Source: Gammaproteobacteria bacterium (GTDB taxonomy: Bacteria > Pseudomonadota > Gammaproteobacteria > JAKDMP01). From it: a stretch of 36,815 nucleotides of DNA. The stretch is from NCBI GenBank assembly GCA_027018875.1, contig JALUYA010000048.1, positions 1 to 36,815 on the forward strand. The letters run 5' to 3'. The notes below the pieces were generated by a model. That model had not been told where the DNA came from, ran no database searches, and saw only the letters and a list, made by a program, of their open reading frames with translations. Positions 20,053-36,815 of the stretch are shown here, piece after piece (position 1 is the first letter of the stretch; the number at the start of each line of letters is the position of its first letter). A program made the position numbers and the translations under genes.

Positions 20053-20483
20053 AGACCGCCCCCGTAATGACGCGGTTTTATACAATAGTCGGGACGATAA
20101 CGCTCTGGAGTTTGTACTTATGCGCGGCGCCGATATCACTCAGGAATCGCTGTTTTCCACGGTTCATCTGAACAGCTTTGTCCCGGCGGATCATCCGCTG
20201 CGAGAGGTGCGTGTGCTGCTCGATGAGGCGCTGGGGCGCCTGAATGGATTGTTCAAGCCTGGCCTATGCTCCCTATGGCAAGGCATCGATTGCCCCGGAG
20301 AAACTGTTACGGACCTTGATGTTGCAGGTGTTTTACTCCATCCGCAGCGAGCGTGCGCTGATGGAGCAAGTGCAGTACAACTTGTTGTTTCGCTGGTTCA
20401 TCGGCCTGAGTATTGACGATACGGTGTGGGATCAGTTAGTGCACCATATCTTCTGTAAATTTCTGAGCGGTGGTTTGAGGTAG
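20042..20483 (+). mobile_element. Decayed IS5-like insertion sequence, left part
   Basis: Begins with CAGGCTGTTGAAGACC, similar to the CAGGCTGTTGAAAAA-type ends of many IS elements, and contains the first part of a DDE transposase broken by a frameshift. The right end is lost: homology stops near 20430-20480, where another element's remnant begins. Confidence 0.6.
20120..20483 (+). pseudogene. IS5-family transposase, frameshifted and truncated
   Basis: The first frame (from ATG 20120) reads MRGADITQESLFSTV, then FVPADHPLREVRVLLDEAL, the N terminus of a common IS5-type transposase. Homology then moves to another frame near 20250-20270 and continues as ASIAPEKLLRTLMLQVFYS, RSERALMEQVQYNLLFRWF and IGLSIDDTVWDQ before ending in unrelated sequence and a stop at 20483. 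The catalytic DDE domain is absent, so no activity is expected. Confidence 0.8.
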
Positions 20484-20541
20484 GCCACCGGCTTATCCTT
20501 TCGATGGAAGTTGTAAATTCACAATCGAGAGGGGTCTACCG

Positions 20542-20600
20542 ATGGCCTACGGGGTTCAGGATAATGCGTTGGAGCCGATATTGGAACTGCTGAGCGAGGG
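20542..20600 (+). pseudogene. IS256-family transposase, N-terminal scrap
   Basis: MAYGVQDNALEPILELLSEG is the typical start of an IS256-type mutator transposase. After about 20 codons the homology ends at a breakpoint near 20600. The preceding 60 bases, with a good GAGAGGGG ribosome-binding region, are probably the left end of that element. Confidence 0.6.
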
Positions 20601-20680
20601 GTGCAGTTCTTCGAGATACTCAACAGTGGCAACCGCCTCAACCAGGATCTGCCCGTTGTCGAGTTTCCGGGCAGGGGGTC
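20598..20680 (-). pseudogene. Glutathione S-transferase fragment
   Basis: On the minus strand this stretch reads ARKLDNGQILVEAVATVEYL followed by EELHP, which matches the GST thioredoxin-fold signature (LDDG-xLTES-AIxEYLxE-hP) including the glutathione-contacting Glu-x region, though the usual Ser after Glu is changed. Both ends are cut: by the IS256 scrap at about 20600, and with no homology beyond about 20680. Too short to function. Confidence 0.5.
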
Positions 20681-20897
20681 TGTCCGGCCGGGTTGAGTTC
20701 GAGAAATGGGTGGGCACGATTTTCGCCAATAAAAACATCGACCGTCAAAGCCGGAATCATGAGCCTATTTTCGAGCAGAAACATGCGCAGGAAACGTAGC
20801 GCGGGAGTATGGCATCATAGATCAGCATGATGGAATTCTCCATAGCGAATCAGACCATGATTAAGTTTTGTTCACCCCGGAAAATCGCATTTACACA
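20681..20897. other. Remnant spacer, nothing recognised
   Basis: Short broken frames without recognisable motifs lie between the GST scrap and the TumE-like gene. This probably belongs to the same decayed mobile region. Confidence 0.5.
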
Positions 20898-21245
20898 TTA
20901 AGCGAGAGAGGGAGATTTTAATACGGCATCCAAAAGGCAGTGTATATTGTCCCAAGCCGGCGCTCCCGGATGGGTCAATGTATCTTCCGTTATGGCACCT
21001 CTGTCATCGTGCATGTGATTGGGAAACGTTTTCAAATCCTTGTGCAAAGGAGCCGTATCAACTTGCCAATGCTTATCGTTCCAGCACCAGGAAATAAAAT
21101 ATTCATGTAGGTTCAAATAGCGCAAATCAACTCTCAAACCATTATCAAAGTTCACGATTAAAGCATTTTGCCTAAGTTCTATTTTCTCAATGCGATCCTC
21201 ATAGAAATGCTTGATCTTTTCCTCTAAGTCTAGATGAATATTCAT
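20898..21245 (-). CDS. Putative toxin, TumE-like (DUF6516-type)
   Basis: A 115-residue protein. The core YFISWCWNDKHWQVDTAPLH, then KTFPNHMHDDRG, resembles the YDNAPHHPELPTFPHHKH core of TumE/DUF6516 proteins, with conserved histidines that may be catalytic. TumE proteins are putative RNase toxins of toxin-antitoxin modules. It lies four bases after a small helical gene on the same strand, with AGGAG ten bases before the ATG. Lower G+C than the surrounding genome and the adjacent IS debris suggest transfer. Family assignment is by eye from a short motif. Confidence 0.55.
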   Translation of the reverse strand: MNIHLDLEEKIKHFYEDRIEKIELRQNALIVNFDNGLRVDLRYLNLHEYFISWCWNDKHWQVDTAPLHKDLKTFPNHMHDDRGAITEDTLTHPGAPAWDNIHCLLDAVLKSPSLA

Positions 21246-21674: not shown

Positions 21675-22283
21675 TCAATTCAACTTCGGCGGCTTGGTTA
21701 TCATCTTTCCCACCTTTTTAACTTTGAAATTTATAGTGCAAGATTTAAGATGCTTGAGTAATCCGGAGGTTATTTGCGTAAAACGCACTATCTGACCACC
21801 ATGTTTTTTAGAAAATTCCACCGCATCCCGCCGATGCATAAATGGAGCCAAGGTAGGACCCATGGAACCACACATATCCTGATTTACCACATACCAGGCT
21901 TTACGGGCATCGATAAAACTACTCGCACTTTTGGAAGGATGGCGCCAATTAAAATCCGGTTCACCAACATTTTGCACATACACTGAACCAACCAAATGTT
22001 GTACATCCGGTTGATGCATGTAGGTAAACATACTCGATATCGAACCGAATTTAAGGAGCTTGGGCTTATTGCCTAGTCCCACCAGGTATACCTCGCCTCG
22101 TGGTCCCGATTGGTGAGTGATATACATTCCACAGACCGCAGATTCATCGCCGGATTTGATGTTAACCGGCGGTTGACTCGTAGTTGCATTCTTCTTGGTG
22201 CAACCACCAAGAAGAATTAATGCTATCGCCATAGCAGCTACCGCAATATGCCTGGTAAGATAAAATTGAGAATCTCGATACAT
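21675..22283 (-). CDS. nosL: Nitrous oxide reductase accessory lipoprotein NosL
   Basis: Copper chaperone for NosZ maturation. The 202-residue protein has an N-terminal hydrophobic segment ending in the lipobox LLGGC, then the CGM motif (VCGMYIT) used by NosL for Cu(I) binding, and later YVVNQDMCGSMGP. Being a lipoprotein it acts in the periplasm, anchored to the membrane. GGGAG lies seven bases before the ATG. The C-terminal about 40 residues (ending in repeated Lys-Val segments) look like a lineage-specific extension. Last gene of the nos operon. Confidence 0.88.
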   Translation of the reverse strand: MYRDSQFYLTRHIAVAAMAIALILLGGCTKKNATTSQPPVNIKSGDESAVCGMYITHQSGPRGEVYLVGLGNKPKLLKFGSISSMFTYMHQPDVQHLVGSVYVQNVGEPDFNWRHPSKSASSFIDARKAWYVVNQDMCGSMGPTLAPFMHRRDAVEFSKKHGGQIVRFTQITSGLLKHLKSCTINFKVKKVGKMITKPPKLN

Positions 22284-22326: not shown

Positions 22327-23160
22327 CTAGATCTCGCTACGCCGGAAACGCCATATCGCCAGAGACACGGGGATAATTCCCCATAGAAACAGAATGCCGA
22401 GTAAACTTAACCAACCTAAGGCGCCATGCATCACCGCCCCACTGAGCGTCATCGCGCCCGCACCATGGCCGAAGCGCAGCAGGTTGACCAAGCGAAATAC
22501 ATCGACGGGGTTGAGTAACAACACATAGGGGATAATTACCCGTTCAGCCGGATTGCCGCCTGTTCCCACTAGCACCGCAAGCAGGGCCAAGTCGAACACC
22601 ACCACGAAAAAAAACCATATTAGTAGCGCCATCCCCGCTGCCCGCGTCCGCTCTACCGCCCGCACGCTAACGATATAAGCCAGACCAAGAAACGCGGCAC
22701 CAAACAGGGAGGCCGAAAGAATAAAGATCCCGTAGGCAACAAAAATTCTCCCTAAGTCCGAACCCCCAGCCTGCCAGCTACTCAAGCCGGCGGCCAACCC
22801 AAAACCAACCAGGATGGCAATAAATAGAATCAGTAAATGGCCCAAAAACTTTCCTATAAGCATCTGCCCCCGACTCAGCGGGTAGGAAAGGAGCAACAGC
22901 AGTGTTCCCTGTTCGCGCTCACCGACTACGGCATCATAGCCTAATAGCAGCGCAATCAGTGGAATCAGGAAAGCCACGAGACTCGCTTGACTCGTTATCG
23001 TCGTCGCCAATGAAGTATAGCCAATGTGCCCCGAGGTGGCTCCTCCGGCATAGGCGATACCCACGGCAAACAAGGCAAACAGAATGGTCAGCCCCAGAAT
23101 CCAGCGATTACGAAATCCATTCATAAGTTGGCTATATACCACAATGGCTACGCTACGCAT
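22327..23160 (-). CDS. nosY: ABC transporter permease NosY
   Basis: Membrane subunit of the NosFY-NosD complex needed to build the copper centres of NosZ. The 277-residue protein has about six hydrophobic segments and the ABC2-type features GEREQGTLLLLLSYPLSRGQ. The start at ATG 23160 has AGGAG nine bases upstream and overlaps the end of nosF by eight bases (ATGCGTAG), which points to translational coupling. Confidence 0.93.
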   Translation of the reverse strand: MRSVAIVVYSQLMNGFRNRWILGLTILFALFAVGIAYAGGATSGHIGYTSLATTITSQASLVAFLIPLIALLLGYDAVVGEREQGTLLLLLSYPLSRGQMLIGKFLGHLLILFIAILVGFGLAAGLSSWQAGGSDLGRIFVAYGIFILSASLFGAAFLGLAYIVSVRAVERTRAAGMALLIWFFFVVVFDLALLAVLVGTGGNPAERVIIPYVLLLNPVDVFRLVNLLRFGHGAGAMTLSGAVMHGALGWLSLLGILFLWGIIPVSLAIWRFRRSEI

Positions 23161-24085
23161 CTCTATCGCTCCTATTTTGCTCGCTGACGATATGATCATA
23201 TAGAGCTTCCAGACTAGGCGGTTCTACCTGAATATCGGTAAGGGAGGGAATACCGGCAAGTGCGGCCACGGCCTTTATTTTCTTCGCATCCGCCACACGA
23301 ATTTCGATATGATCCGCATCCTTGACATCCACATCACCATAGCGGGCACATTCAGCCTTGACCTGTTCTCCAACGCTCTCAAACCGACCGCTAAGACGGA
23401 TAGTTACGGGGAGCCCAATCCTCTGGCGTATTTGATCCATAGTGCCGGTTGCGATAAGGCGACCTTGTAACAGAACGGCCACCTCATCCACCCGCGATTC
23501 AATCTCCGACAATACATGGGAAGACCAGATGATGGTCACATCCTCGCTGCGCAGAGTATCGATAATATCGTAGAACTCCTCTGCGGCAATAGGATCCAAT
23601 CCGGTTGTCGGTTCATCCATCACCAGCAACCGCGGGTTACCCAAGAGTGCCTGGGCAAGTCCCAGGCGTTGACGCATCCCCCTGGAGTACGTTTTAACTT
23701 TCTTATTGGCGACGGGTCCCAGCCCCACCTTTTCAAGCAACTGCTTACGTTGGCCGCGCGATGTCCCCTTGAGGCGACCGAAGTAATCCATAACCTCACG
23801 CCCGGTCAGCTGCCCATAGAGCACGACCACCTCGGGCAAATACCCTATCTGCACCTGCAATTCATAGGGAGTTCTGCCCGGCTCGCGGACCTGCCCTAAA
23901 ACCCGTATGCTACCGGAAGTCGGTGCGATAAGCCCCAGAACCAACTTGAACAAGGTGGATTTTCCGGCCCCATTGTGCCCGATAAGGCCTAGCACCAATC
24001 CTTCGGGAATGCTGAGATTGATATTATCCAACGCCAGGGTCTCAGCGAATTTTTTGTGTACATCAATCAACTCTACGCCTGCCAT
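23153..24085 (-). CDS. nosF: ABC transporter ATP-binding protein NosF
   Basis: Energises the NosFYD complex. The 310-residue protein has Walker A GHNGAGKST (residues 36-44), the signature-containing YSRGMRQRLGLAQALLGNP, Walker B LLVMDEPTTGLD and the switch His in IIWSSHVLSE. Its ATG starts one base after the nosD stop, with GGAG eight bases upstream. Confidence 0.95.
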   Translation of the reverse strand: MAGVELIDVHKKFAETLALDNINLSIPEGLVLGLIGHNGAGKSTLFKLVLGLIAPTSGSIRVLGQVREPGRTPYELQVQIGYLPEVVVLYGQLTGREVMDYFGRLKGTSRGQRKQLLEKVGLGPVANKKVKTYSRGMRQRLGLAQALLGNPRLLVMDEPTTGLDPIAAEEFYDIIDTLRSEDVTIIWSSHVLSEIESRVDEVAVLLQGRLIATGTMDQIRQRIGLPVTIRLSGRFESVGEQVKAECARYGDVDVKDADHIEIRVADAKKIKAVAALAGIPSLTDIQVEPPSLEALYDHIVSEQNRSDRDA

Positions 24086-24086
24086 T

Positions 24087-25454
24087 TCAACTGCTCCGAT
24101 AGTGGAGAATAAGCTTCTCCAGCTTCTGCGGTATTGGGAAGGGAGGATGCATCAAGGGATAGCTGTCCTGTACACTCGGCGGGCGCGTCACGGGGAACTG
24201 TTTCTGAGCCCAGCGCAATGCCATCAGTGCCGGGCTGCCGAGTAATAGATGCGCCATGGGATATTTCCACAACAGCACATCTACCGCGCTATTCGGACGA
24301 TAGGGGGTATCTCCAATGCCGTCTCCATTCAGATCCCAACCCATATAGCCACTCCAATAATTTCCGCGCCCTTGGAGGGACCACTCTGCTTCCATGTTTT
24401 GCACATATTTCGCCTCGATCCGGTTATACAGAAAACTATTTCCAAAAACTATCCCATTCTGGGAACCACCGGTAAAGTTCACTCCTATCTCACTGTCCGC
24501 AAGCCAGTTGTATGAGATTTGATCATAATTGCTGTCATAGACGAATATTCCTATTCCTGCCGCGCCAGGCACGGGACTACCTCCCGTTCCGTAGCCAAGA
24601 CCGGCTTCAACGTGGACTATGGTGTTTCCGGAGATTTGACTATAGTTGACGAAATTCAATAAGACACCGTAATTTCTATCATTTATAGAGCGGTTACGCA
24701 CAACCAGGAGATAGCGCGAGAACATGAGGGCGTAGCCGGCCCGGTTATCTGTCGTCCGGTTGAATAAAACGATGCAGTGGTTCGAGTACATCCAATGAAA
24801 CCCATAGCGTACGTCATGCACATAGTTATCTTCCAGGAGCACATTTTTGCTGACATAGATATAGATTCCATCTCGTGTTTGCCAAACGTCATTGCCCTTG
24901 ATCTCTCCCCCATCCACATTCCACAAATGGATCCCATCACCCCGATCTTGCGATCGCAGACTGCGGATTCCTCTCACGTGGTTATTCACTATCTTTGGCG
25001 AAGGATCACCATTCAGCCATACACCGAACAAGTCATGCACGATCCAGTTATCACGAATTGTTGTATTCGCTGCATGTTGGTCGATAAATACCCCGGCATT
25101 CTCGTTGGTTAAGTTAATACCGGAGTTGCGGATAACAAAACCACTTACCGTGACATTCGAGGCTTTCACCAGGATCACGTTACCGTGATGGCTCCCATCC
25201 AGCACCGCTCCCTTCATACCCATAAGCCAAATGGATCGTTTCAGAACGAGATGTACATGAAAAATTCCCGGATGCACCCGGATGACGGCACCCGGCGCCG
25301 CACGCGCCACCGCCTGTTCCAGGCCGATAGATCCGCCGGGAAAGACATTGATGGTTGCGGATTCCGCCGCCTGTGCAAAAGCAATCGACACCAGCAGCGC
25401 AAAAAACGCGATCCGAAGCCAACGAGCATATTGCATGAATAGATGATCTTGCAT
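24087..25454 (-). CDS. nosD: Periplasmic copper-processing protein NosD
   Basis: Right-handed beta-helix protein that works with NosFY and NosL in assembling CuZ. The 455-residue form starts at ATG 25454 with GGAG six bases upstream; an ATG one codon earlier is also possible. A signal peptide (WLRIAFFALLVSIAFAQAAE) is followed by repeated parallel-helix strands such as NTTIRDNWI, GIYIYVSKNVLLEDNYV and NYSQISGNTIVHV, and the family's C-terminal YRPNSAVDVLLWKYPMAHL. Lies between nosZ (107 bases) and nosF. Confidence 0.94.
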   Translation of the reverse strand: MQDHLFMQYARWLRIAFFALLVSIAFAQAAESATINVFPGGSIGLEQAVARAAPGAVIRVHPGIFHVHLVLKRSIWLMGMKGAVLDGSHHGNVILVKASNVTVSGFVIRNSGINLTNENAGVFIDQHAANTTIRDNWIVHDLFGVWLNGDPSPKIVNNHVRGIRSLRSQDRGDGIHLWNVDGGEIKGNDVWQTRDGIYIYVSKNVLLEDNYVHDVRYGFHWMYSNHCIVLFNRTTDNRAGYALMFSRYLLVVRNRSINDRNYGVLLNFVNYSQISGNTIVHVEAGLGYGTGGSPVPGAAGIGIFVYDSNYDQISYNWLADSEIGVNFTGGSQNGIVFGNSFLYNRIEAKYVQNMEAEWSLQGRGNYWSGYMGWDLNGDGIGDTPYRPNSAVDVLLWKYPMAHLLLGSPALMALRWAQKQFPVTRPPSVQDSYPLMHPPFPIPQKLEKLILHYRSS

Positions 25455-25561
25455 CATCCGCTCCATTTCGACAAGGTGATTACGGGAGATTTTCAAGAGC
25501 CTTTCGGCAAGTCGGCACCCGGCGATATAGACACAAAGCCGGGTGCCGACATATCCTCTTA

Positions 25562-27508
25562 TTATGCCTTTACCAACATCCGCCCCCGCATCTCCAGATG
25601 GAGTGCGTGGCAAAAGAAAGTACAATAGTACCAATAGACTCCCGCCTTGTCAGCCATGAAGGTTACCGATGCCGTTTCCTGAGGGCTGATCTCCATATTG
25701 ACCCCGTAATCGGACAGGCACCAACCATGCGTCAAGTCCTGAATATTATTGATATTGGTCACCACCACCGTAACCTCGTCCCCCTTGTTCACTTCGAATT
25801 GATCCAAACCGAACACGGGAGCCTGCGCAGTCATGTAAACCCGCACCTTGCGACCGTCCCTGATTACCTTGTTATCGCTCACCGGATTAACGCCATCGCG
25901 GCGCGCCATGGCCACCGTCTCCGCAAAGAATGGATCATTTCGGTCCCATACCCGCTTGATCTTGGGGATCAAGATCTTGGCGGGTATGAGCAAGCAATCA
26001 TGCGGTTCGCTATAGACCGGGGCATCGGCTACAAGCCGCATCTTGGGCCCGGAAATATCGATCAGTTGATCATTATCGGGATGCAGCGGCCCTACCGGCA
26101 AGAAGCGATCCTTGGAAAATTTATTCAATGAGACCAACCACTTACCATTTGCATCCCGAGTCTCTCCAAGACTCGAATGATTATGCCCAGGTTGGTAGGC
26201 CACATCGAGTTTCTGGCGGATATAATCTACCTTCTTCCCGTTATAGTGCCGGATTGCATCCTCGATATTCCACTTGACCACCTGGCTGTCGATAAACAAG
26301 GTGGTGTAAGCATTACCCCGACCATCGTAGGCCGTATGTAATGGGCCCAAGCCCAGCTCGGGTTGGGCCACCACCGCATCCATTGGATTTTTGAACTTGC
26401 CGGCAAAATACTGATCCACTTTTTCCCAGGAGATGACCGTAGCGGTAGGTGAAAGCTTCCCGCCGGCGATCACGTATTTCCCATCGGGGGTGGCATTGCA
26501 GCCATGCGGGTTTTTCGGGGTCGGAACATACATCGTCAGATCCGAACCATGGCGGCCATCGACAACCGGAACATTCGGATCTTCAATGGTGAAGTAATGC
26601 CCATCCTTTACGGCCTTCTCAATTCGCGGAATATTGAAAATCACCGTCCAGTCCCGTTCGTTGCGGATGAACTGCGCCAGGTTAACTCCGTCCTCGCTGT
26701 TATAGCAGGTCGCGGCCGCATATTTCCCCGAATAATCCGCGTCGGTATTGTCCAGGTTACCGTCCACCAGTACCTGCCAGGCAATCTTCATCGTATCGCC
26801 GTCAATGGCAGTGAACACAGCGGAATATTTCTTCGGATTATTAAGATCGCGCCCGTCATTGGGGTGCGGCACCCGGCACTCGCTGTTGCAGAACACATAC
26901 CCGGTACGCGGTACCCGTTGTACCCGCAGCCCATGAATATCCTGGGCATTGGGAATATGAATAATCTTATCCGTACGCATCACATCCACGCGAATGCGCG
27001 CCACCCGGGTATTCGCCTTGTCATTGGCAAAAATATAACGCCCGTCATACTGCGCGTTAGTCATCGACATATGGGGATGGTGCAGATCGCCCCCCACGGG
27101 ACGAGGTCCCTTGGGAAACACCCGCTTGCTTTCGTTGGTTATCCCCCAGCCGATCGTGAAATCATCCTGGAATACCGGAACCCGAACGAACTCTCGCATG
27201 GACGGAACCCCGAAAAGGCGGATCTCGGCGGAATGGCCACCGCTCCAGATTCCGTAATACTCATCGAGCTGCCCCGGGGCCACATAGTCTTCCGGCATTT
27301 TCGCCGCACGTGCGGTTCCAGGCGTTGCCAAGCCACCCAGTAATGCACCGCCGCTCGCACCCACCACGCCGGCCGCCCCGGCCAAGCCGAGAAACTTGCG
27401 GCGTGACACGGTCCATTTCTCATCCTCCGTTCCTACCGCCTGCCTTTTTACATCCTCAGCCCCAGGGCCGGTTACATCGTCTTTTGAATGACCTTTATCA
27501 TCAGTCAT
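25562..27508 (-). CDS. nosZ: Nitrous oxide reductase NosZ (clade I, Tat-exported)
   Basis: Periplasmic multicopper enzyme reducing N2O to N2. The 648-residue protein starts at ATG 27508 (AGGAGG upstream) with a hydrophilic 33-residue leader before the Tat motif [10 protein letters not shown] (RR at 36-37). CuZ histidines are visible in [33 protein letters not shown] and EPHDCL. The CuA domain has LTHGW and [12 protein letters not shown] (Cys629, Cys633, His637, Met640). The residue equivalent to the CuA ligand Trp620 of Pseudomonas stutzeri is Phe631; since that ligand acts through its backbone carbonyl, function is probably kept. HALHxEMRGRM and the Tat leader mark clade I rather than the Sec-exported clade II. 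Confidence 0.97.
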
Positions 27509-27599
27509 GTCCAATACCTCCTGTCATTAAGCCAAATTGATCAATAATCCCTTCTGCTTCCTGCAAACCGCCAAGTCCCTGGCAATCCTCTTTCCTGCG

Positions 27600-29888
27600 T
27601 CATCCTTTATCCTTTTTCTTACCCGAATTCTCTGTTTTACTTTTTTTCGCCACCACCGGCGCTACCGCTACCGGACGGTTCATTTTGAGTGCGCGTTCAA
27701 ACCGCTTCCTCCGCTCTACCAAGGGTGGGCACTTTCTGTCGTTCCAATAGGTTGCCTGGCAATCCAAACAATGGTGACACTCGTCCAGGCGGATCTCACC
27801 GGTAGGGGCAATAGCCTGCACCTCGCACTCGTTGGCACATATCTGGCACGGATGACCACACTGGATACGACGCTTAAGCCAGTCGAAGCGCCTGAATTTA
27901 GACGGAATAGCCAGGGCGGCTCCCAGCGGGCAAATATATTTACAAAAGAACTTGTCATTGAATAACGAAACCGCCAGCAGCCCGGCCGCATAGGCCCCAA
28001 ACCACCATTGGCGCCCGAAGTGCAACAGAAAAACCGTTTTGAAAGGTTCAACTTCGGCAAAGCGCTCCGCGTTCGCCACGGATTGAAGCGAAATGGCAAA
28101 CAAGATCAGGAGGATCACGTATTTCAAGGCCCACAGCCGCTCATGTACCGCCATCGGGAACTTGAACTCGGGCACATGAAGCGCCCGCCCTATGTAACTA
28201 ATAAGTTGCTGTAGTGCTCCGTATGGACACAGCCACCCACAATACACGCCTCTGCCCCACAGCAGAATAATCACGGCGACAAACACCCAGAGTATAAAAA
28301 TCACCGGGTCGAGCAAAAACGTCTTCCAGGTAAAGTTACCGGAAAGGGCATGCAGGAAGGTAAACACATTGACCACGGACAACTGCCCCATCAGGTAAAA
28401 TCCGACGTAGCCCGCCGTGAACACCAGGTAGCTGATGCGTGTCCAGTACAAAATCCGGGGATGCTGTGCCAATAGATCCTGAAAAATCATAATCAGTAAC
28501 AACACGCCAAGCGCCGCTATCAGGATGGCAATATCGACTTGATGCCGGCGCCAGATCGATTCCCAGAGCGGCATCGGAGCGGCAACCTTGGGAATATTCA
28601 GAAACCGGGATGGAATCCGGTAATGGCTGCTGAAAGTAGCCAGTACCGAAGTCAACGGCCCGGTCTGTCGTTTGACGATAAGTTGCAGCCGCCATGGGGC
28701 ACCGGGGTTGAACTTGTAAGACCCACGGATAATAAAGGTGGCCATTTGACTGAAGTGGGGCATCCCCTTCAGGCTGGGATTGATCAGATAGCGATAATCA
28801 TTCCCATGGAAAATAATAATGGAACTCCCCTGCATCAGGTGCAGCCTTCCAAACACCCCTCCCCGTACGTAACCGATACCCTTAAACGAGTAATCTCCGT
28901 TAGCCACCACGGCAAGGGCATGGTCGCCGGGATGGAGACTCGCCATCAGTTCTTTATAGTATCGATCCCCCAGAAAATTACGCCCGACGGTTGGTATAGT
29001 CAGGTCCGCATAATACAGACTGATAAAACAGCGTTGCCCCTTGGGCAGATCGACCTTGCATTTACTTTCCACACCCGAATAGTTTCCCGAACCCCATTGG
29101 GTATAACCGTGTACATCCTTAAAGGCTGCACGAACCTGGCCGAATGTAACCACCAGGTGACCAATCAGGCCCAACTTAAGGAGTTTCTGCCAATCCGCCG
29201 GCATAAAAAACTTGGTCTTGATTGTGGCAAGTGGAGCGGCATTGACATGCACTATCCCGCGAGAAGCGGCAACCTTCAATGCGGCACGCATGATCGAGGC
29301 GCTGGCCACCAGGGAAGTTACCGTGGCTCCTGAAATTCCATCGATACGTACATAACCCTCGGCATTCTTACCGCTTCCCAGCTCCAGGCGATCGGTAACC
29401 CGCAAACCGATAAACCGGCGTATGTAGTCGTAAAGTTTCTGCACCGGAATGCCGATCAGGAAAATCGGTTCATCTTCGTTCAGGACCTTGGTTCCGACAA
29501 TCTCCCCCTTGGTGTTGATCCCCACCAGGACATTTATGGGCTTACCGGAATATGCCGGAATCGGCGCGATCATCACGGTCTTGAACACATATCCGACCAC
29601 CTTGCCCGATTCATAAACCGCAGCGGCGGGAGGCTTACCTTGAATCTTGCCAAAGCGTGTGGCCTTGGGGAAAAAAGCATGTACAATAGGAAGTTTATTG
29701 GCGATACTGGCCGTGGTGATGGTAGCGGCCTGGAGCGGCGCGGCCCATAGCATCATCCCCATCCAGAGCATAATCCCAACGGCAAATACCAGGCCGCGGA
29801 TTCGTCCGAGATCCGAATTCTGGTGATCCGACGCCAGGCCGAGAAGATAAAATCCATCCTTGCTTTTATGAAAACACGAGCTTGTCAT
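27600..29888 (-). CDS. nosR: NosR, flavin- and FeS-containing membrane protein for N2O reduction
   Basis: Membrane electron-transfer and maturation factor for NosZ. The 762-residue protein has a signal/TM segment (about 33-54), a periplasmic FMN domain with the flavinylation motif DGISGATVTS (183-192), a run of hydrophobic helices, two membrane CxxxCP motifs (CGWLCPYG and CKYICPLG), and a C-terminal ferredoxin region with CGHPCQICANEC and CHHCLDC...C. All the expected cofactors' ligands are present. ApbE, encoded 12 bases upstream, would attach the FMN. The C terminus is Lys-rich. Confidence 0.95.
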   Translation of the reverse strand: MTSSCFHKSKDGFYLLGLASDHQNSDLGRIRGLVFAVGIMLWMGMMLWAAPLQAATITTASIANKLPIVHAFFPKATRFGKIQGKPPAAAVYESGKVVGYVFKTVMIAPIPAYSGKPINVLVGINTKGEIVGTKVLNEDEPIFLIGIPVQKLYDYIRRFIGLRVTDRLELGSGKNAEGYVRIDGISGATVTSLVASASIMRAALKVAASRGIVHVNAAPLATIKTKFFMPADWQKLLKLGLIGHLVVTFGQVRAAFKDVHGYTQWGSGNYSGVESKCKVDLPKGQRCFISLYYADLTIPTVGRNFLGDRYYKELMASLHPGDHALAVVANGDYSFKGIGYVRGGVFGRLHLMQGSSIIIFHGNDYRYLINPSLKGMPHFSQMATFIIRGSYKFNPGAPWRLQLIVKRQTGPLTSVLATFSSHYRIPSRFLNIPKVAAPMPLWESIWRRHQVDIAILIAALGVLLLIMIFQDLLAQHPRILYWTRISYLVFTAGYVGFYLMGQLSVVNVFTFLHALSGNFTWKTFLLDPVIFILWVFVAVIILLWGRGVYCGWLCPYGALQQLISYIGRALHVPEFKFPMAVHERLWALKYVILLILFAISLQSVANAERFAEVEPFKTVFLLHFGRQWWFGAYAAGLLAVSLFNDKFFCKYICPLGAALAIPSKFRRFDWLKRRIQCGHPCQICANECEVQAIAPTGEIRLDECHHCLDCQATYWNDRKCPPLVERRKRFERALKMNRPVAVAPVVAKKSKTENSGKKKDKG

Positions 29889-29900
29889 TTTTCTTTTCCC

Positions 29901-30935
29901 CTACACAACTTCTGCCGATCCGCGAAACAAAGGAAATCCCCTTGATCGCCATGCCTTTTTCCCGTTCCACCCGATGATGAACCACTCGTGCCCCTGTTGC
30001 GCCATGAGATTACGAATTTTTTCCAGGGGCAGGGAAAACAGGGTGACACCGAGCGCATCGGCATCCATGCTGGACCGCGTCAACGTCGTCACGCTGGAAT
30101 AATGATCCGGTGACATACCGGTATGCGGATTGATTATATGAAACAGGCGACGGTCGACGGAGAAAAACACTTCATAATTACCGGAGGTGGTCAAGGCCCC
30201 ATTACGCAGGGATACCACGGCACAGAGTCGCTTAATATCCAGTGGATCCGTGATCCCGATCAGCCACGGTTTACCACCCGGCTCGGTGATGCCATGAACA
30301 TCTCCACCGGCATCGATGAGGGCCCGGGTAATGCCGTATCGACGCAGAACGGAAATACCCTGATCCACGACATGCCCCTTGGCGATTCCATCCAGGGTTA
30401 TCGCCATACTCGGCTCGGAAAACCGGACTGAATCGGCGGTGATCAGTAACTTGCGATAATCCACACGCCGATCTCTACGCCGGATGGCAACCATATCCAA
30501 ATGACGCATATCTACAGGCGTCGGCAGGCTGAAATAGTAGTCGAGAACCGGCAGGACCGTAACGTCGAAAGCCCCATCGGAAATCCGGGAAAAATGCCGT
30601 GCCCGCTCAATAACGGTTAAAAGTTCTGCCGGTGGATGGTCTAACCGACCCTCACGATTCAAACGGGACACCGGGCTCTGCGGGTCGAAGCGAGTCAACA
30701 AGGAGGCAGCTTGCGCCATGCGCGTAAAAGCAGCATCGATGGCCCGACGACCCTGCCCGGGGGTTTTGGCCATTACGGTTACCGCAACGGAGGTCTTCAT
30801 CAGCGGACGCACACCGTGCAACTCAAAAGAATTCCTGTGCCGGTTCATGAAGTACCATCCGCCACCCACGGCCGCGGCGCCAAGCGCCACCCCTTTTAGG
30901 GACCACCCAATGAAATCCCTTCGGTTCAAATCCAT
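29901..30935 (-). CDS. apbE: FAD:protein FMN transferase (ApbE/NosX)
   Basis: Attaches FMN covalently to a threonine of its target, here most likely NosR. The 344-residue protein has a Tat-like leader (NRRDFIGWSLKGVALGAAA), the domain start with LLTRFDPQSPVSRLNREG, LDGIAKGHVVD, ALIDAGGD and the C-terminal HIINPHTG and SMDADAL motifs. It is the first gene of the operon here, before nosR, whereas it more often comes last (nosX). An FNR-type promoter lies 113 bases upstream. Confidence 0.93.
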   Translation of the reverse strand: MDLNRRDFIGWSLKGVALGAAAVGGGWYFMNRHRNSFELHGVRPLMKTSVAVTVMAKTPGQGRRAIDAAFTRMAQAASLLTRFDPQSPVSRLNREGRLDHPPAELLTVIERARHFSRISDGAFDVTVLPVLDYYFSLPTPVDMRHLDMVAIRRRDRRVDYRKLLITADSVRFSEPSMAITLDGIAKGHVVDQGISVLRRYGITRALIDAGGDVHGITEPGGKPWLIGITDPLDIKRLCAVVSLRNGALTTSGNYEVFFSVDRRLFHIINPHTGMSPDHYSSVTTLTRSSMDADALGVTLFSLPLEKIRNLMAQQGHEWFIIGWNGKKAWRSRGFPLFRGSAEVV

Positions 30936-31047: not shown

Positions 31048-31097
31048 AGGTAATAGTGTACGGCCGGTAACCTAAAATAGACTTGATCTAGATCAAG
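31048..31097 (-). promoter_or_regulatory. FNR/DNR-type promoter of the nos operon
   Basis: Minus strand: perfect palindrome CTTGATCTAGATCAAG (31097-31082), containing TTGATCTAGATCAA, the FNR/ANR/DNR consensus TTGAT-N4-ATCAA. A -10-like TACACT (31060-31055) places the start near 31048, so the box centre is at -41.5, the class II activator position. No -35 hexamer is needed in that class. Confidence 0.8.
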
Positions 31098-31395: not shown

Positions 31396-31749
31396 CTACC
31401 TTTTCCCGGAGGCCGCAACCGGGGTATAAAGCACACACCAACCGCGGGGGCTGATGCTCCCCGCCACCACCTTGCAGGTGCCATTTTGTTTCGCGGAAGG
31501 ACCGGGGATAAAACTAGAACAGTTGCTACAATCCTGTACATGCCCAAGTTTGCCATAATCATTCCGGGTCCCAAGGGGCTTGTCCTGATAGCCTACCGAT
31601 GCCTTGGAAGCCTTTGCCGCGGCTCTCGCCGAAGGGCTGAGCAATAATACCGGCGCCAGCACCAGGCCCGTAACCGCTGTTACCCCTATCTTAAGCAAGG
31701 CCCGACGCGAAAACGATGCACCTTTTCCTTGATCGGATTTAGAAACCAT
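31396..31749 (-). CDS. High-potential iron-sulfur protein (HiPIP), Tat-exported, copy 1
   Basis: Small periplasmic electron carrier with one [4Fe-4S]3+/2+ cluster. The 117-residue precursor has a Tat leader (SRRALLKIGVTAV, ending near SARAAA) and four cluster cysteines spaced C-x2-C-x14-C-x12-C in CSNC ... GTC ... GWC. ATG 31749 has GGAGG five bases upstream. Compared with copy 2 it has about 11 extra residues (TRNDYGKLGHVQD region) just before the first cysteine. HiPIPs accept electrons from the bc1 complex or from oxidases and feed terminal reductases; the partner here is unknown. Confidence 0.9.
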   Translation of the reverse strand: MVSKSDQGKGASFSRRALLKIGVTAVTGLVLAPVLLLSPSARAAAKASKASVGYQDKPLGTRNDYGKLGHVQDCSNCSSFIPGPSAKQNGTCKVVAGSISPRGWCVLYTPVAASGKR

Positions 31750-31846
31750 ATACACCTCCACAAACGAAAGACTCTGCCAAAAGGTAAATTCCCACTTCCC
31801 GCCTCAGGCCTTCTTACGAGCGGGAATGGCACCCCAACCACACAGA

Positions 31847-32188
31847 CTAAGCCGACCCCCCGTGCATAAATCCTCCTTTGACGTCCCGGGCATAAACGAC
31901 ACACCAGCCGTGCGGACTGATGCTACCCTTCACCACCTGGCATGTGCCATTTTCCCGGGGGGATGAACCCGGTATAAAATGAGCACAGTTACTGCATTGC
32001 TGGTTTCCAAGCGGCTTATTTTGATATCCCGCCTCCGATTTGGTCATCGATGCCGTCACCTTTCTCTGCACCGCCTGGCTCGCCCATATTGCCGGTGCTA
32101 TCATCAAACCCACTGCGGCCACGGCCGCACCCTTGAAAAGCTCTCGCCGCGTGAACCTCTTGCCTTTCCCTTCATCGATTTTTGACAT
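31847..32188 (-). CDS. High-potential iron-sulfur protein (HiPIP), Tat-exported, copy 2
   Basis: The 113-residue precursor has the Tat leader TRRELFKGAAVAAVG and the same four-cysteine spacing (C-x2-C-x14-C-x12-C) as copy 1. The C-terminal half is nearly the same as copy 1 (NGTC-VV-GSISP-GWCV-Y), so the pair arose by tandem duplication. A short His/Met-containing tail follows. ATG 32188 has AGGAG six bases upstream; the ATG one codon earlier is too close. It is the first gene after an FNR-type promoter and probably cotranscribed with copy 1, 97 bases downstream. Confidence 0.9.
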   Translation of the reverse strand: MSKIDEGKGKRFTRRELFKGAAVAAVGLMIAPAIWASQAVQRKVTASMTKSEAGYQNKPLGNQQCSNCAHFIPGSSPRENGTCQVVKGSISPHGWCVVYARDVKGGFMHGGSA

Positions 32189-32393
32189 CATAATCTCCTC
32201 ACAGAATAATCGGTTATATCGACTCGATTTGAATTGACGACCTCACTCCACTTCGGTCTACATCATCTCCGCATAAACGACAAGTTGCCTCGATGCCTCA
32301 AAGCATTACACCCTGATAAAGAAATTCAAGGTGGTTTCTTTCCGGGGCTGGGGGCTGCCGGCCTGCTTCTTGTATTCCCCGTGGTTCCAACCG

Positions 32394-32423: not shown

Positions 32424-32473
32424 CAAATTAAGTATAGTGGCTAAACTGGATCTTAATCTTGATCTAAATCAAG
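32424..32473 (-). promoter_or_regulatory. FNR/DNR-type promoter of the HiPIP genes
   Basis: Minus strand: TTGATTTAGATCAA (plus strand TTGATCTAAATCAA, 32459-32472), matching TTGAT-N4-ATCAA. The -10 TATACT (32436-32431) puts the start near 32424, so the box centre is at -41.5, the same class II spacing as the nos promoter. Confidence 0.8.
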
Positions 32474-32630: not shown

Positions 32631-33446
32631 TCAGGAACCCTGTGCTTCGTCGGCCGGAAGGGGATCCGGATTCGACTCGAACCAGCGGGCCGCAAACAAC
32701 CCGGCCTCGAACAGCGCCCAGATCGGAATGGCAAGCAGGAGTTGTGCCACCACGCTCGGCGGCGTCAACACCATGCCCAGAATAAAAGCGGCCACGATTA
32801 CGTAGGGGCGCGCACTCGCCAACTGTCGCCGCGAGACCATCCCCGTCCAAACCACCAAAATAATAGCAATCGGAACCTCGAAGGTCGCCCCGAAGGCCAT
32901 GAACAACGTCATCACAAAATTCAGGTACTCACCAATATCGGTCATCATCACCACCCCGTGCGGGGTGGTGGCCACGAAGAAGCGAAAAATCATCGGAAAG
33001 ACGAGAAAGTACGCAAATGCCGTACCGAGATAAAACAACACCGAGCTGGAAACGAGCAGCGGCAGCATCATACGTTTCTCACGCTGGTACAGCGCCGGGC
33101 CGATGAACGCCCACAGGTGATACAGGATATAGGGCACCGAGATGAAAATTGCGACATACAGCGCCAGCTTCATCGGTACCATGAACGGTGTGGCCACCTG
33201 CATGGCGATCATGTTGGCCCCGGGCGGCAAGGCCGCCTGCAGCGGCTTGGACAACCAATAAAATAGCTCGTTGTCCACTGGAAACAGTCCGAGAAACACC
33301 CCGGCAACCACCAGCACGATCCACAGTACCCGGCTGCGAAACTCAAGCAAATGCTGCAGCAGCGGCTGCTCGGCTAAGGCATCGTCCCCCGGTGCGACCG
33401 GAGATTTCCGCGCCGATCGAGACGCCCGGCGCCGTCGCCCGATCAC
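32631..33446 (-). CDS. tatC: Sec-independent protein translocase TatC
   Basis: Six-helix core receptor of the Tat translocon, which recognises twin-arginine leaders. The 271-residue protein has LLQHLLEFRSRVLWIV at the first helix and FISVPYILYHLWAFIGPALYQREKR across the conserved loop; the Phe (WAF) and Glu (REKR) that match E. coli Phe94 and Glu103 are present, while the usual Gln before Trp is replaced by His-Leu. GTG start overlaps the tatB stop (GTGA). Last gene of the tatA-tatA-tatB-tatC operon. Confidence 0.95.
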   Translation of the reverse strand: MIGRRRRASRSARKSPVAPGDDALAEQPLLQHLLEFRSRVLWIVLVVAGVFLGLFPVDNELFYWLSKPLQAALPPGANMIAMQVATPFMVPMKLALYVAIFISVPYILYHLWAFIGPALYQREKRMMLPLLVSSSVLFYLGTAFAYFLVFPMIFRFFVATTPHGVVMMTDIGEYLNFVMTLFMAFGATFEVPIAIILVVWTGMVSRRQLASARPYVIVAAFILGMVLTPPSVVAQLLLAIPIWALFEAGLFAARWFESNPDPLPADEAQGS

Positions 33447-33913
33447 GGCTTGGTCGCTTCCTTCTCCGGTAGGATCACCCTCGACGCGACGGCCGGAGCG
33501 TCCCCGCCGGAGTTCGTCGCTGACCGCTCTAGCTCTACGTTCCCAGGTTTCGCCCCGGTGCCGTCCGGGGTTGCCCCGGACCGCTTCGAGTTGCTCTCAT
33601 CCGCCGCGGTCCATTCGGATATGGGTTGATTCAACACCTTCGACACCTTGCGCAACCCCGTCTCGGTCTGGGTACCGGCTTGACCAAGCTGCGCCTTCAG
33701 GCTCTGGGCGTCACGACGCAGATTCGCGGTATCCCGCTTGAGTTCATCGAGTTCAATTTCTTCTTCGAACTGGGCCCGCAGCGATTGCACCATGGTCCGG
33801 GCACGCCCGACCCACAACCCGACCTGTCGTGCCACCTTGGGTAACCGCTCGGGACCCACCACAAGCAAGGCAACGATCAGGATCAACAGCAGTTCAAACC
33901 CGGTGCCAAACAT
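33443..33913 (-). CDS. tatB: Sec-independent protein translocase TatB
   Basis: Partner of TatC in the substrate-binding complex. The 156-residue protein has a single N-terminal helix (MFGTGFELLLILIVALLVVG) and the GPERLP hinge diagnostic of TatB, then the amphipathic helix (VARQVGLWVGRARTMVQSL) and a long hydrophilic tail. ATG 33913 has GGAG just upstream; a GTG three codons earlier is less likely. Confidence 0.93.
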   Translation of the reverse strand: MFGTGFELLLILIVALLVVGPERLPKVARQVGLWVGRARTMVQSLRAQFEEEIELDELKRDTANLRRDAQSLKAQLGQAGTQTETGLRKVSKVLNQPISEWTAADESNSKRSGATPDGTGAKPGNVELERSATNSGGDAPAVASRVILPEKEATKP

Positions 33914-33958
33914 ATTCTCCACCCGCGCCAGGAGTCATCATCCACCCTCCGGTGAATT

Positions 33959-34171
33959 TCAGTCTTTCCGCGCCTCGTCTTCCTTGGGTGTGACAACCTC
34001 CGAAGCTTCGGCCGATGGGGCTTCCTCCCCTTGATGTAACCCATGCTTGAAGTCACGGATGGCGCCCCCCAAGTCACCCCCGATATGCCTGATCTTCTTG
34101 GTGCCAAACAACAACAGTACGATCAGGGCTATCAGTAACAAGGATCCTACGCTAATTCCACTCAGGCTCAT
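33959..34171 (-). CDS. tatA: Sec-independent protein translocase TatA, copy 1
   Basis: Pore-forming component recruited to TatBC. The 70-residue protein has the short transmembrane helix SVGSLLLIALIVLLLFG, the FGTKK hinge, and the amphipathic helix IRHIGGDLGGAIRDFKHG with the conserved Phe, then an acidic tail. GGAGG lies eight bases before ATG 34171. It follows the other tatA by 116 bases and precedes tatB. Confidence 0.94.
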   Translation of the reverse strand: MSLSGISVGSLLLIALIVLLLFGTKKIRHIGGDLGGAIRDFKHGLHQGEEAPSAEASEVVTPKEDEARKD

Positions 34172-34287
34172 GATAACCACCTCCGGTTAGTTGATAAATC
34201 ATACCTTTTCTCGCCTCACCCGGCGAATCCGCCACCACCTGCGGACAAGTTACCGCGACCCATTTGCCCCGGCCCTTGCCGAGACTC

Positions 34288-34563
34288 TCATGCGGCCTTG
34301 GCACCCGGTGTCGGCTTCTTGCCCGCCGGCACCACACTTCCCTTCCCGGATGCGCCGGTCGCGTGCGGCGATACGTGCTCCGCCGATTCCGGTTCCGCCG
34401 GCGTAACCCGTCGCTCCTCGCCTTCGTGCATCGCCTCGCGAAACCCGCGAACGGCATTCCCGAGATCCCCGCCGATCCGGTGCAGCTTCTTGGTGCCGAA
34501 CAGCAACAAGATAATCACCAGAATCAACAGGATCGACCCTATACTCATTCCCTCAATGCCCAT
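34288..34563 (-). CDS. tatA: Sec-independent protein translocase TatA, copy 2 (first gene of the operon)
   Basis: A second TatA of 91 residues: helix SIGSILLILVIILLLFG, FGTKK hinge, amphipathic LHRIGGDLGNAVRGFREAM with the conserved Phe, and a longer Pro/Ala/Lys-rich tail. Its ribosome-binding region GGAGGTGG eight to nine bases before ATG 34563 is the same as that of copy 1, which supports a tandem duplication. An alternative reading as TatE is a matter of naming only. An FNR-type promoter lies upstream. Confidence 0.93.
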   Translation of the reverse strand: MGIEGMSIGSILLILVIILLLFGTKKLHRIGGDLGNAVRGFREAMHEGEERRVTPAEPESAEHVSPHATGASGKGSVVPAGKKPTPGAKAA

Positions 34564-34641
34564 GGCTTCCACCTCCTGACCGTAAGGTCACAGAGCCTCC
34601 CGAGCATTCTGCGGCTGGTATCTCGACATACCCCATCCGCA

Positions 34642-34711
34642 CAAATCTATTTTATACCCCTTCATTCCTCTTCGCTCCCGCGTAAACCCGCTAAACTTGA
34701 TCTAGATCAAG
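34642..34711 (-). promoter_or_regulatory. FNR/DNR-type promoter of the tat operon
   Basis: The 16-base palindrome CTTGATCTAGATCAAG (34696-34711) is identical to the nos operon box. On the minus strand a -10 TATAAA (34656-34651) would start transcription near 34642-34644, with the box centre about 60 bases upstream, near the class I FNR position (-61.5). The only gene it can serve nearby is tatA copy 2, since the AioA-like gene ends here. Confidence 0.7.
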
Positions 34712-34798: not shown

Positions 34799-36815
34799 TC
34801 AGGAGAAATCAGCCGTAGGCAGCAGGCTGGTCTTGCGCTTCAGAGCCGGCAAGGTTCCCAACCGCCGCAGGGCCACCCGGGCGTTCTTTTTCCATGCATT
34901 GTTGCTCATCGGATCCACGTAACTGGAGGTCACGTGATTCATGGTTCCCCGGGGATGATACATAAGGACAAACACGTGCCCGGGGCGAACCTGATCGGTC
35001 AGGACGACATAAGCGGTGCAATTCCCTTGATGGTTATACACCTCCACCACGTCGCCTTCCTTCAGGCCCAAACGCCCGGCATCCTTCGGGTTGACCTGCA
35101 CCAGCTCCATCGGGTTGATCAACATTTTCTCGGTCAACCATCGTGCATGATAAACGCTCTGCCACAGATTCTGGACCCGGCCCGTACTCAGCCAGAAGGG
35201 ATAACGCTCGCGGTTTTCCCCCTGCAGATATCCATGAACCTCCTTGGCATCGCGATAACCATCCCACGGGCGGGTCGCGTACCAGCGGGCCTTGCCATCG
35301 GGCGTGCTGAAATAGAGATTTTCGTACATGCGTACGGTCCCCACCACCTTGCGGGTCACCGGATCGACGCGCACCGGCGTGGCAATACCCTTCTGGCCTA
35401 GCTTGCGCAACATGTCATAGGTGACCCCGTAGAAAGACTCCATGAACACGGTGGCCACCCGGTTCGCGGGCAGTCCATCATTCTTCTTCCACAGCTTTTC
35501 CTGAAGATCCATACAGACATCTTCCGAGGATTTCCAGGTCATTCCAGCGAAGCGGCGGGCTATCTCCGGCTTACCCGCACCGGCATATAACTGTTGCAGC
35601 TTCTGCCCGACGAGTCCCATGATTTCCCAGTCGGGCTTGGCCTCCCCCGGCGGATCCATGAATTTCTCGTAGAGCCGCAGGAGACGGCTCGAGCAGTTGA
35701 GCGAAGTCATATCCATCTCGCCCCAGGAAGCCGCCGCCGGCAAGATCAGGTGGGCATCGCGCCCGGTCTCGGTCTGGTAGATATTCTGCTCGACGATAAA
35801 CAGGCCCTTGGTACGCTCCAGGGTCTTCAGAATGCGATCGGCCAGGGCGACCGGATCCGCCGGTAAAGCCGGTTGTGCCACCGCTTGCAGAAAGTCATTG
35901 GAACGCTGGTGGATCCGCTGCTGCAGAAGCTGCGAATCGTAGGCCGTGAGATAGGGATTATTACCGATGACCCAGAACATTTTGCCCCCACCGCCTTCCA
36001 GGTAGGTGAGAATGTTCTTTCCCGGTCGCGGATACAGGTATGGCGGGTGCGCCGCCGATTCCTGATGTCCACCCTGGCGCCCGGTTCCCGTACCGGGGCG
36101 ACCGATATTGTGCGTGAGGATACCGAGCTGAGCCACGGCCGCCACCGAATCATACTGCCGGTAGCCCCAGATGATGCCCTTCTCGTACAAGATGTGAGTG
36201 CGACGCATGAAACCGCCCTGCTTGGGTTCGGCGATCCAGCGGGCCGCCTCGGTCATATCGCGCGTACTCACCCCGGTGATTTCCGCCGTCCGGCGAAGCA
36301 CCACCTCAAGAGATTTACCGGTTTGCAGCGCCCCCTTTTTGTAGTCCTCGAAGGTTTTGAGATCGGTATGTTTTTCCACCAGGTCGCGATCGTACCAGCC
36401 GCGTTCATAGCAGATTCGCGCAATGGCGTTGGCCAGCTCCGTATCCGTGCCGGGATTCAGTTGCAAGTGCAGCACCCGTTTCGGATCGATGTTGCGGAAC
36501 AGCCCCAGGGTCGAGGGCACACGAACATCCACCACGACCACCCGGCTCGCCGCCGCCGGCTCGCCCTTGGCGAAGACCGCCCGCTTCTCGGACACCGTGT
36601 TGCCGAGAAAGTTAGGTAGCTGATGGGCGGCCGTCAGGACCGAGGCGGTATCGTAGGTATTGGCACCCCAAAATACCTGGGTATCGCACAGGCGCACATC
36701 GTCGGTGGTGTAGTTCAACACCTGCAGACCACGATCCTCGCTGCCCCAGGTTTCACTGTTATCCGCCGGGCGATTATGACGCGCACAGTATTCAAGACGC
36801 AAGGCAGTATGGAAC
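34799..36815 (-). CDS. AioA-like molybdopterin oxidoreductase, C-terminal part (runs off right edge)
   Basis: The visible 671 or so residues belong to the DMSO-reductase family and resemble the arsenite oxidase large subunit AioA over their whole length: PGTDTELANAIA, YEKGIIWG, HNIGRPGTGTGRQGGHQES, LPAAASWGEMDMTSLN, KFMDPPGEAKPD and FWLSTGRVQNLWQSVYH. The residues matching the four oxyanion-binding residues of Alcaligenes AioA (His195, Glu203, Arg419, His423) are all present: HNRPADNSE (His about 36777, Glu about 36753) and RQGGH (36079-36065). The N-terminal FeS domain is outside the window. In Aio operons a Rieske subunit with a Tat leader precedes this gene. Alternatives: an iodate reductase (IdrA) or another AioA-clade enzyme; substrate not proven. 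Confidence 0.8.
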   Translation of the reverse strand, partial: FHTALRLEYCARHNRPADNSETWGSEDRGLQVLNYTTDDVRLCDTQVFWGANTYDTASVLTAAHQLPNFLGNTVSEKRAVFAKGEPAAASRVVVVDVRVPSTLGLFRNIDPKRVLHLQLNPGTDTELANAIARICYERGWYDRDLVEKHTDLKTFEDYKKGALQTGKSLEVVLRRTAEITGVSTRDMTEAARWIAEPKQGGFMRRTHILYEKGIIWGYRQYDSVAAVAQLGILTHNIGRPGTGTGRQGGHQESAAHPPYLYPRPGKNILTYLEGGGGKMFWVIGNNPYLTAYDSQLLQQRIHQRSNDFLQAVAQPALPADPVALADRILKTLERTKGLFIVEQNIYQTETGRDAHLILPAAASWGEMDMTSLNCSSRLLRLYEKFMDPPGEAKPDWEIMGLVGQKLQQLYAGAGKPEIARRFAGMTWKSSEDVCMDLQEKLWKKNDGLPANRVATVFMESFYGVTYDMLRKLGQKGIATPVRVDPVTRKVVGTVRMYENLYFSTPDGKARWYATRPWDGYRDAKEVHGYLQGENRERYPFWLSTGRVQNLWQSVYHARWLTEKMLINPMELVQVNPKDAGRLGLKEGDVVEVYNHQGNCTAYVVLTDQVRPGHVFVLMYHPRGTMNHVTSSYVDPMSNNAWKKNARVALRRLGTLPALKRKTSLLPTADFS

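Follow-up and report, generated by a model that had tools for sequence, protein, structure and literature searches.

The main biological sink known for N2O is nitrous oxide reductase (NosZ), whose electrons are thought to come from cytochromes c or cupredoxins. In clade I nos clusters the donor is a small c-type cytochrome or pseudoazurin, and the clade II clusters of Wolinella and Methylacidiphilum encode a dedicated carrier, NosC1/NosC2, within the cluster itself (PMC11102522). HiPIPs are iron-sulfur carriers for which a different partner has been described. Their reduction by quinol:cytochrome c/HiPIP oxidoreductases is established, and in Rhodothermus the quinol-oxidising complex ACIII reduces a soluble periplasmic HiPIP, from which electrons have been proposed to flow to the CuA acceptor of an oxygen reductase (PMC5928083). 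The small HiPIPs (PF01355), among them Acidithiobacillus Iro, Rhodopseudomonas PioC and Ferrovum HiPIP-41, combine a Tat motif with a small mature domain. A literature search for HiPIPs together with nosZ or nitrous oxide reductase found no paper; because subscription journals lay mostly outside that search, the novelty of such a pairing is unproven.

The window, by which we mean the whole 36,815-nt stretch of gammaproteobacterial DNA that was analysed, carries on its minus strand the gene order tatA-tatA-tatB-tatC, HiPIP-A, HiPIP-B, apbE(nosX)-nosR-nosZ-nosD-nosF-nosY-nosL. The nos block comprises apbE/nosX, encoding an FAD:protein FMN transferase (29901..30935; Pfam ApbE, 205 bits), nosR (27600..29888; NF046105, 906.6 bits against a cut-off of 1000), nosZ (25562..27514), nosD (24087..25634; TIGR04247, 438 bits), nosF (23153..24085; ABC_tran, 111 bits), nosY (22327..23199; ABC2_membrane_2, 121 bits) and nosL (21675..22283; Pfam NosL, 117 bits). 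The nosZ product is a Tat-dependent clade I N2O reductase, scoring 998.8 bits with TIGR04244 (cut-off 625) and containing the ligand motifs of both copper sites. All CuZ His motifs are conserved, as seen by alignment to solved N2O reductases and in a motif survey, and the CuA motif C-x3-C-x3-H-x2-M is present, with Phe633 (codon 25616..25618) in the CuA loop at a position where most clade I NosZ proteins have Trp. The block shares nosR, nosX/apbE, nosZDFYL and the CuZ His motifs with described clade I clusters, but differs from them in being headed by HiPIP genes, in lacking a cytochrome or cupredoxin gene within the window and in the CuA-loop Phe. It likewise resembles the clade II clusters in encoding a candidate dedicated carrier, whereas here the carrier is an iron-sulfur protein, the NosZ belongs to clade I and NosR is present. 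Short transposase-like (IS-like) ORFs recognised by eye at ~20120-20800 mark the downstream edge of the block, hinting at an acquired island. Downstream of nosL, a small protein encoded at 20898-21245 (-) looks by eye like one encoded in a distant nos cluster (L108:1166-1576 (-)).

HiPIP-A (31847..32191, (-)) and HiPIP-B (31396..31749, (-)) each have a ribosome-binding site. In HiPIP-A a GAGGAG precedes ATGATG and the favoured start is 32188; in HiPIP-B a GGAGG points to the ATG at 31749 and thus not to the listed GTG at 31761, which lies upstream of this site. Both exceed the Pfam HIPIP (PF01355) cut-off of 22 bits, with scores of 30.0 and 26.3, respectively, and both match the solved HiPIPs 3h31 and 1isu, while HiPIP-A also matches the PioC structure 6xyv. 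These matches, and a GSISPxGWC motif held in common, identify them as HiPIPs of the small Iro/PioC-like type. They fall well short of the Iro iron oxidase model (NCBIfam NF041615; 55.8 and 47.5 bits against an equivalog cut-off of 100) and their genomic context is that of nos and FNR, not that of iron oxidation. Both proteins carry a twin-arginine motif (TRRELFK and SRRALLK) and are likely Tat clients.

The sequence-only reading had described two Tat-exported HiPIPs upstream of nos, and the ORFs, profile scores and twin-arginine motifs agree with it. It had also pointed to a conserved cysteine spacing. The spacing C-x2-C-x14-C-x12-C is indeed identical in the two proteins, but it is common to nearly all small HiPIPs that we collected and so adds no information. 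The difference that it saw just before the first cysteine is real: HiPIP-B has an insertion of about 10 residues there (TRNDYGKLGHV) that none of the aligned relatives has. Divided roles for the pair, which that difference had been taken to suggest, are speculation, since nothing beyond the insertion speaks for them; HiPIP-A and HiPIP-B are sisters in the HiPIP tree (88/75, modest support), and the alphaproteobacterial nos loci described below carry a single HiPIP. Those single copies led us to reject the tandem duplication as a sign of divided roles and indicate that a tandem pair is not required. An AlphaFold2 model of HiPIP-B has a mean pLDDT of 54.6, a confidence too low for judging the HiPIP fold.

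Upstream of the HiPIP genes lies a Tat set (32631-34572) made up of a second tatA-like gene read from its ORF translation (34288..34572, (-)), tatA (33959..34180, (-); TIGR01411, 59.2 bits), tatB (33443..33922, (-); TIGR01410, 77.8 bits) and tatC (32631..33446, (-); TIGR00945, 221 bits). The set has its own FNR box, and the HiPIPs and NosZ are likely Tat clients. Beyond it is an AioA-like arsenite-oxidase large-subunit gene (34799..36814, (-); TIGR02693, 657 bits, cut-off 359) that is cut by the contig end, so that the genes for its small subunit and for any carrier that goes with it would have to lie on a different contig. No window ORF of at least 50 aa contains a CxxCH motif and no cupredoxin occurs among the window genes annotated with Pfam and NCBIfam, in agreement with the earlier statement that the island encodes no small cytochrome or cupredoxin. 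Rfam matches in the window are limited to two tRNAs.

The HiPIP pair and the nos operon had been said to share a type of promoter, and this is what we find. A perfect FNR box (TTGATTTAGATCAA, 32459..32472, (-)) lies upstream of the HiPIP pair with TATACT 22 nt downstream, and another (TTGATCTAGATCAA, 31083..31096, (-)) precedes the nos operon with TACACT 22 nt downstream. In both cases the -10-like hexamer starts exactly 22 nt past the box, which is class II FNR geometry, while the box of the tat genes (34697..34710, (-)) has TATAAA further downstream, at a class I-like distance. Perfect boxes, searched with the pattern TTGATnnnnATCAA, occur 15 times in the 2.21 Mb of the genome, three of them within the one 3.6-kb stretch that serves nos, the HiPIPs and tat; the reversed pattern, used as a control, occurs 0 times. 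In sequence, therefore, the HiPIP and nos promoters fit a predicted FNR regulon. Class II spacing recurs at a ttr operon (C43) and at a cytochrome-porin/cytochrome c operon (C1), and the HiPIP genes thus seem to be part of an anaerobic regulon of which nos is one member among others.

To place this arrangement among other genomes, we scanned genome contigs with a profile built from the HiPIP alignment, which gave 27 loci in 26 genomes. In an alphaproteobacterial MAG (L086) a HiPIP gene directly precedes apbE-nosR-nosZ-D-F-Y-L; the same holds for L106 (genome G094), where a perfect FNR box starts 107 nt before the HiPIP and the promoter spacing is kept, and for L119, where an FNR box again stands before the HiPIP. 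A HiPIP gene thus lies directly upstream of nos in three alphaproteobacterial genomes, with one HiPIP each and a perfect FNR box in two of the three (L106, L119), and in four genomes of two classes when the window is included. A nosZ search of the order of G106 recovered 2 of 96 genomes, G106 and G159, both with HiPIP-apbE-nosR-nosZDFYL. The G159 locus, in which an FNR box precedes the HiPIP, is the one among the three alphaproteobacterial cases that was found by nosZ alone, regardless of HiPIP.

With the window NosZ as query, clade I NosZ was found in 30 of 385 alphaproteobacterial and 38 of 369 gammaproteobacterial genomes. Screening 73 nos loci with the HiPIP HMM, mostly over ~9 kb on either side and with some loci cut by contig ends, yielded L086, L106 and L119 as the only positives. 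These three group with the window and L182 in one NosZ clade (SH-aLRT 100), such that nos has a neighbouring HiPIP in 4 of the 5 clade loci, compared with 0 of the 69 remaining nos loci (Fisher p ~4e-6), a figure that is flattering because two of the positives came through the HiPIP search. Among loci found by nosZ alone the proportions are 1 of 2 in the clade and 0 of ~68 elsewhere (p ~0.03), and since nos loci are related by descent neither value is a true probability. Across the linked loci NosZ is 74-87% identical and ApbE and NosR ~50%, so the HiPIP linkage has outlasted much sequence change within a single NosZ clade. The closest NosZ, that of G657 (L182), comes from a locus with unchanged gene order in which apbE is preceded by an imperfect FNR-like box; the ~20 kb ahead of apbE and the 9 kb beyond nosZ contain no HiPIP. 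The CuA-loop Phe is found in 5 of 5 members of the clade, while among the other NosZ proteins surveyed 49 have Trp and 0 have Phe, with His, Asn or other residues in further lineages. Because L182 has the Phe but no local HiPIP, the residue tracks the NosZ clade and not the HiPIP, and as a sign of altered electron entry it is only a hint.

Outside the nos loci, the HiPIP family keeps varied company. In the HiPIP scan 21 of the 26 genomes carry HiPIPs of this family without nosZ, which was found in the other five, and in the order of G106 such HiPIPs occur in 19 of 94 nosZ-free genomes; the two nos-linked HiPIPs were part of the query profile of that order search, and their top scores are therefore not independent evidence. 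Members of the family come after bc1 genes in two loci, L080 (Rieske, cytochrome b, cytochrome c1) and L078 (Rieske), which is consistent with reduction by bc1. They follow aioB-aioA on the same strand in Acidiphilium iwatense (L087), and stand next to ttrA in L096 and next to cytochrome-porin genes in L088 and L090. Such surroundings would be expected if the HiPIPs were general periplasmic carriers that accept electrons from bc1 or from periplasmic dehydrogenases. We rejected the idea that the nos-linked HiPIPs form an orthologous group of their own: all nos-linked copies fall in a group of eight (88/86, modest) that also holds L074, L082 and L243, so that this HiPIP type alone is no marker of NosZ. 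At the nos locus of G094 the HiPIP has its nearest relative in a second HiPIP of that genome and not in other nos HiPIPs, and the copy of G181 (L273) lies among seemingly unrelated genes.

The genome of the window itself encodes other candidate carriers. Pfam finds HiPIP-A and HiPIP-B as its only HiPIPs, and a third HiPIP-like protein with C-x2-C-x16-C-x12-C (L066:359-715 (-), contig C43) ends an FNR-driven tetrathionate-reductase-like operon of ttrB, an nrfD-like gene, ttrA and a chaperone-like gene. A near relative of this protein adjoins TtrA in Mizugakiibacter SZUA-23 (L096). Family searches, which are not exhaustive (Pfam, for one, overlooked the third HiPIP), place class I cytochromes c on contigs C1, C30, C42 and C46 and a CopI-like cupredoxin on C9. 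The C1 cytochrome c (138 aa; C1:66677-67093) lies downstream of a 450-aa protein that has one N-terminal CxxCH, no family match and by eye the look of a Cyc2-like fused cytochrome-porin; homologues of the latter adjoin HiPIPs in L088 and L090. As the C1 pair (L061:8677-10491 (-)) stands under a class II FNR box, an island without a cytochrome does not mean a cell without one under anaerobic control. On C40 the genes for haem-copper oxidase subunits I and II (CuA-type; L067:5400-8893) have a perfect FNR box and a gene for a Crp/FNR-like regulator close by. Another perfect box (L003, C1:12723) has UbiU/UbiV-like genes (U32 peptidase type) on one side and an SCP2-like gene on the other, a setting that suggests ubiquinone synthesis independent of O2; a UbiU gene is also found beside the nos operon in L086.

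We propose that HiPIP-A and HiPIP-B would act as periplasmic one-electron carriers of an FNR-controlled anaerobic respiration, at least one of them delivering electrons to the CuA site of NosZ. Electrons would leave quinol through a quinol-oxidising complex (bc1, our presumed source, or a similar complex), and possibly arsenite oxidase, and would pass through the HiPIP to CuA, CuZ and N2O, the HiPIP replacing the small cytochrome c or cupredoxin in this NosZ lineage. Given that HiPIP reduction by quinol-oxidising complexes is established, the proposal amounts to a known carrier with a new acceptor, N2O reductase in place of the oxygen reductase proposed for Rhodothermus. CuA potentials are usually ~+250 mV. 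Acidophile HiPIPs such as Hip reach up to +510 mV at pH 7, compared with 330-351 mV in neutrophiles (PMC10879576), which can place them too high to reduce CuA readily; the strongly downhill reduction of N2O could still pull electrons through despite this gap. We estimate a probability of about 0.6 for a HiPIP-to-NosZ branch in one NosZ lineage, with at least one HiPIP feeding CuA, and we infer the electron flow and its direction from the sequence context. The earlier suggestion of such a route thus gains from the recurrent HiPIP-apbE-nosR-nosZDFYL order and the FNR boxes, and loses from a HiPIP family found mostly without nosZ and beside other redox enzymes, from the FNR-driven class I cytochrome c and from a closest NosZ relative with no local HiPIP. 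An extended form, in which a dedicated HiPIP-to-NosZ branch with a co-adapted CuA site could in this organism also receive electrons directly from the adjacent arsenite oxidase in the periplasm, such that arsenite oxidation is coupled to N2O reduction with bc1 bypassed, strikes us as improbable.

The HiPIPs might instead be general anaerobic or lithotrophic carriers, for example acceptors of arsenite oxidase or participants in iron oxidation, that adjoin nos through shared FNR control while NosZ uses cytochrome c. The AioA-like gene just upstream in the window, the aio neighbourhood in Acidiphilium iwatense, the third HiPIP in the FNR-driven ttr operon, the class I cytochrome c under an FNR box and the iron oxidase Iro as nearest, though below cut-off, NCBIfam model all argue for such a role. 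However, L086, L106 and L119 have no AioA homologue by the HiPIP (the distant molybdoenzyme match in L106 is 13 kb off) and in all three the nos block starts with the HiPIP gene; in the window aioA is separated from the HiPIPs by four tat genes and two FNR boxes. We regard this explanation as unlikely. That the linkage is an accident, with a HiPIP picked up by a single transferred nos island and retained fortuitously, would agree with the restriction of HiPIP-linked NosZs to one clade, so that the linkage may have arisen once, and with the IS-like ORFs at the island edge. Its persistence across two classes at the identities given above, the FNR promoter spacing retained in L106 and the G094 HiPIP, whose closest relative in the same genome suggests upkeep or replacement at nos, all make hitch-hiking very doubtful.

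The HiPIP could also serve the maturation or re-activation of NosZ or NosR, acting on CuZ or the NosR flavin state, with catalytic electrons arriving via NosR or cytochrome c. The products of apbE and nosR, which the HiPIP genes adjoin, act on NosR and NosZ activity. We know of no HiPIP in NosZ maturation, however, and 69 other nos loci manage with no HiPIP nearby, and we give this role little credence. NosX has been assigned to NosR maturation and NosR to electron transfer to NosZ in work cited in PMC11102522; NosR itself may feed NosZ, which weighs against the HiPIP-to-NosZ route.

The HiPIP-nos operon is a compact unit in which the question of the electron donor is directly testable. If true, electron supply from an iron-sulfur carrier to one NosZ lineage would add to the known electron routes to N2O reductase. 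Acidophiles are the best-known source of such small HiPIPs, and the route might therefore bear on N2O reduction at low pH, where NosZ is usually poorly assembled.
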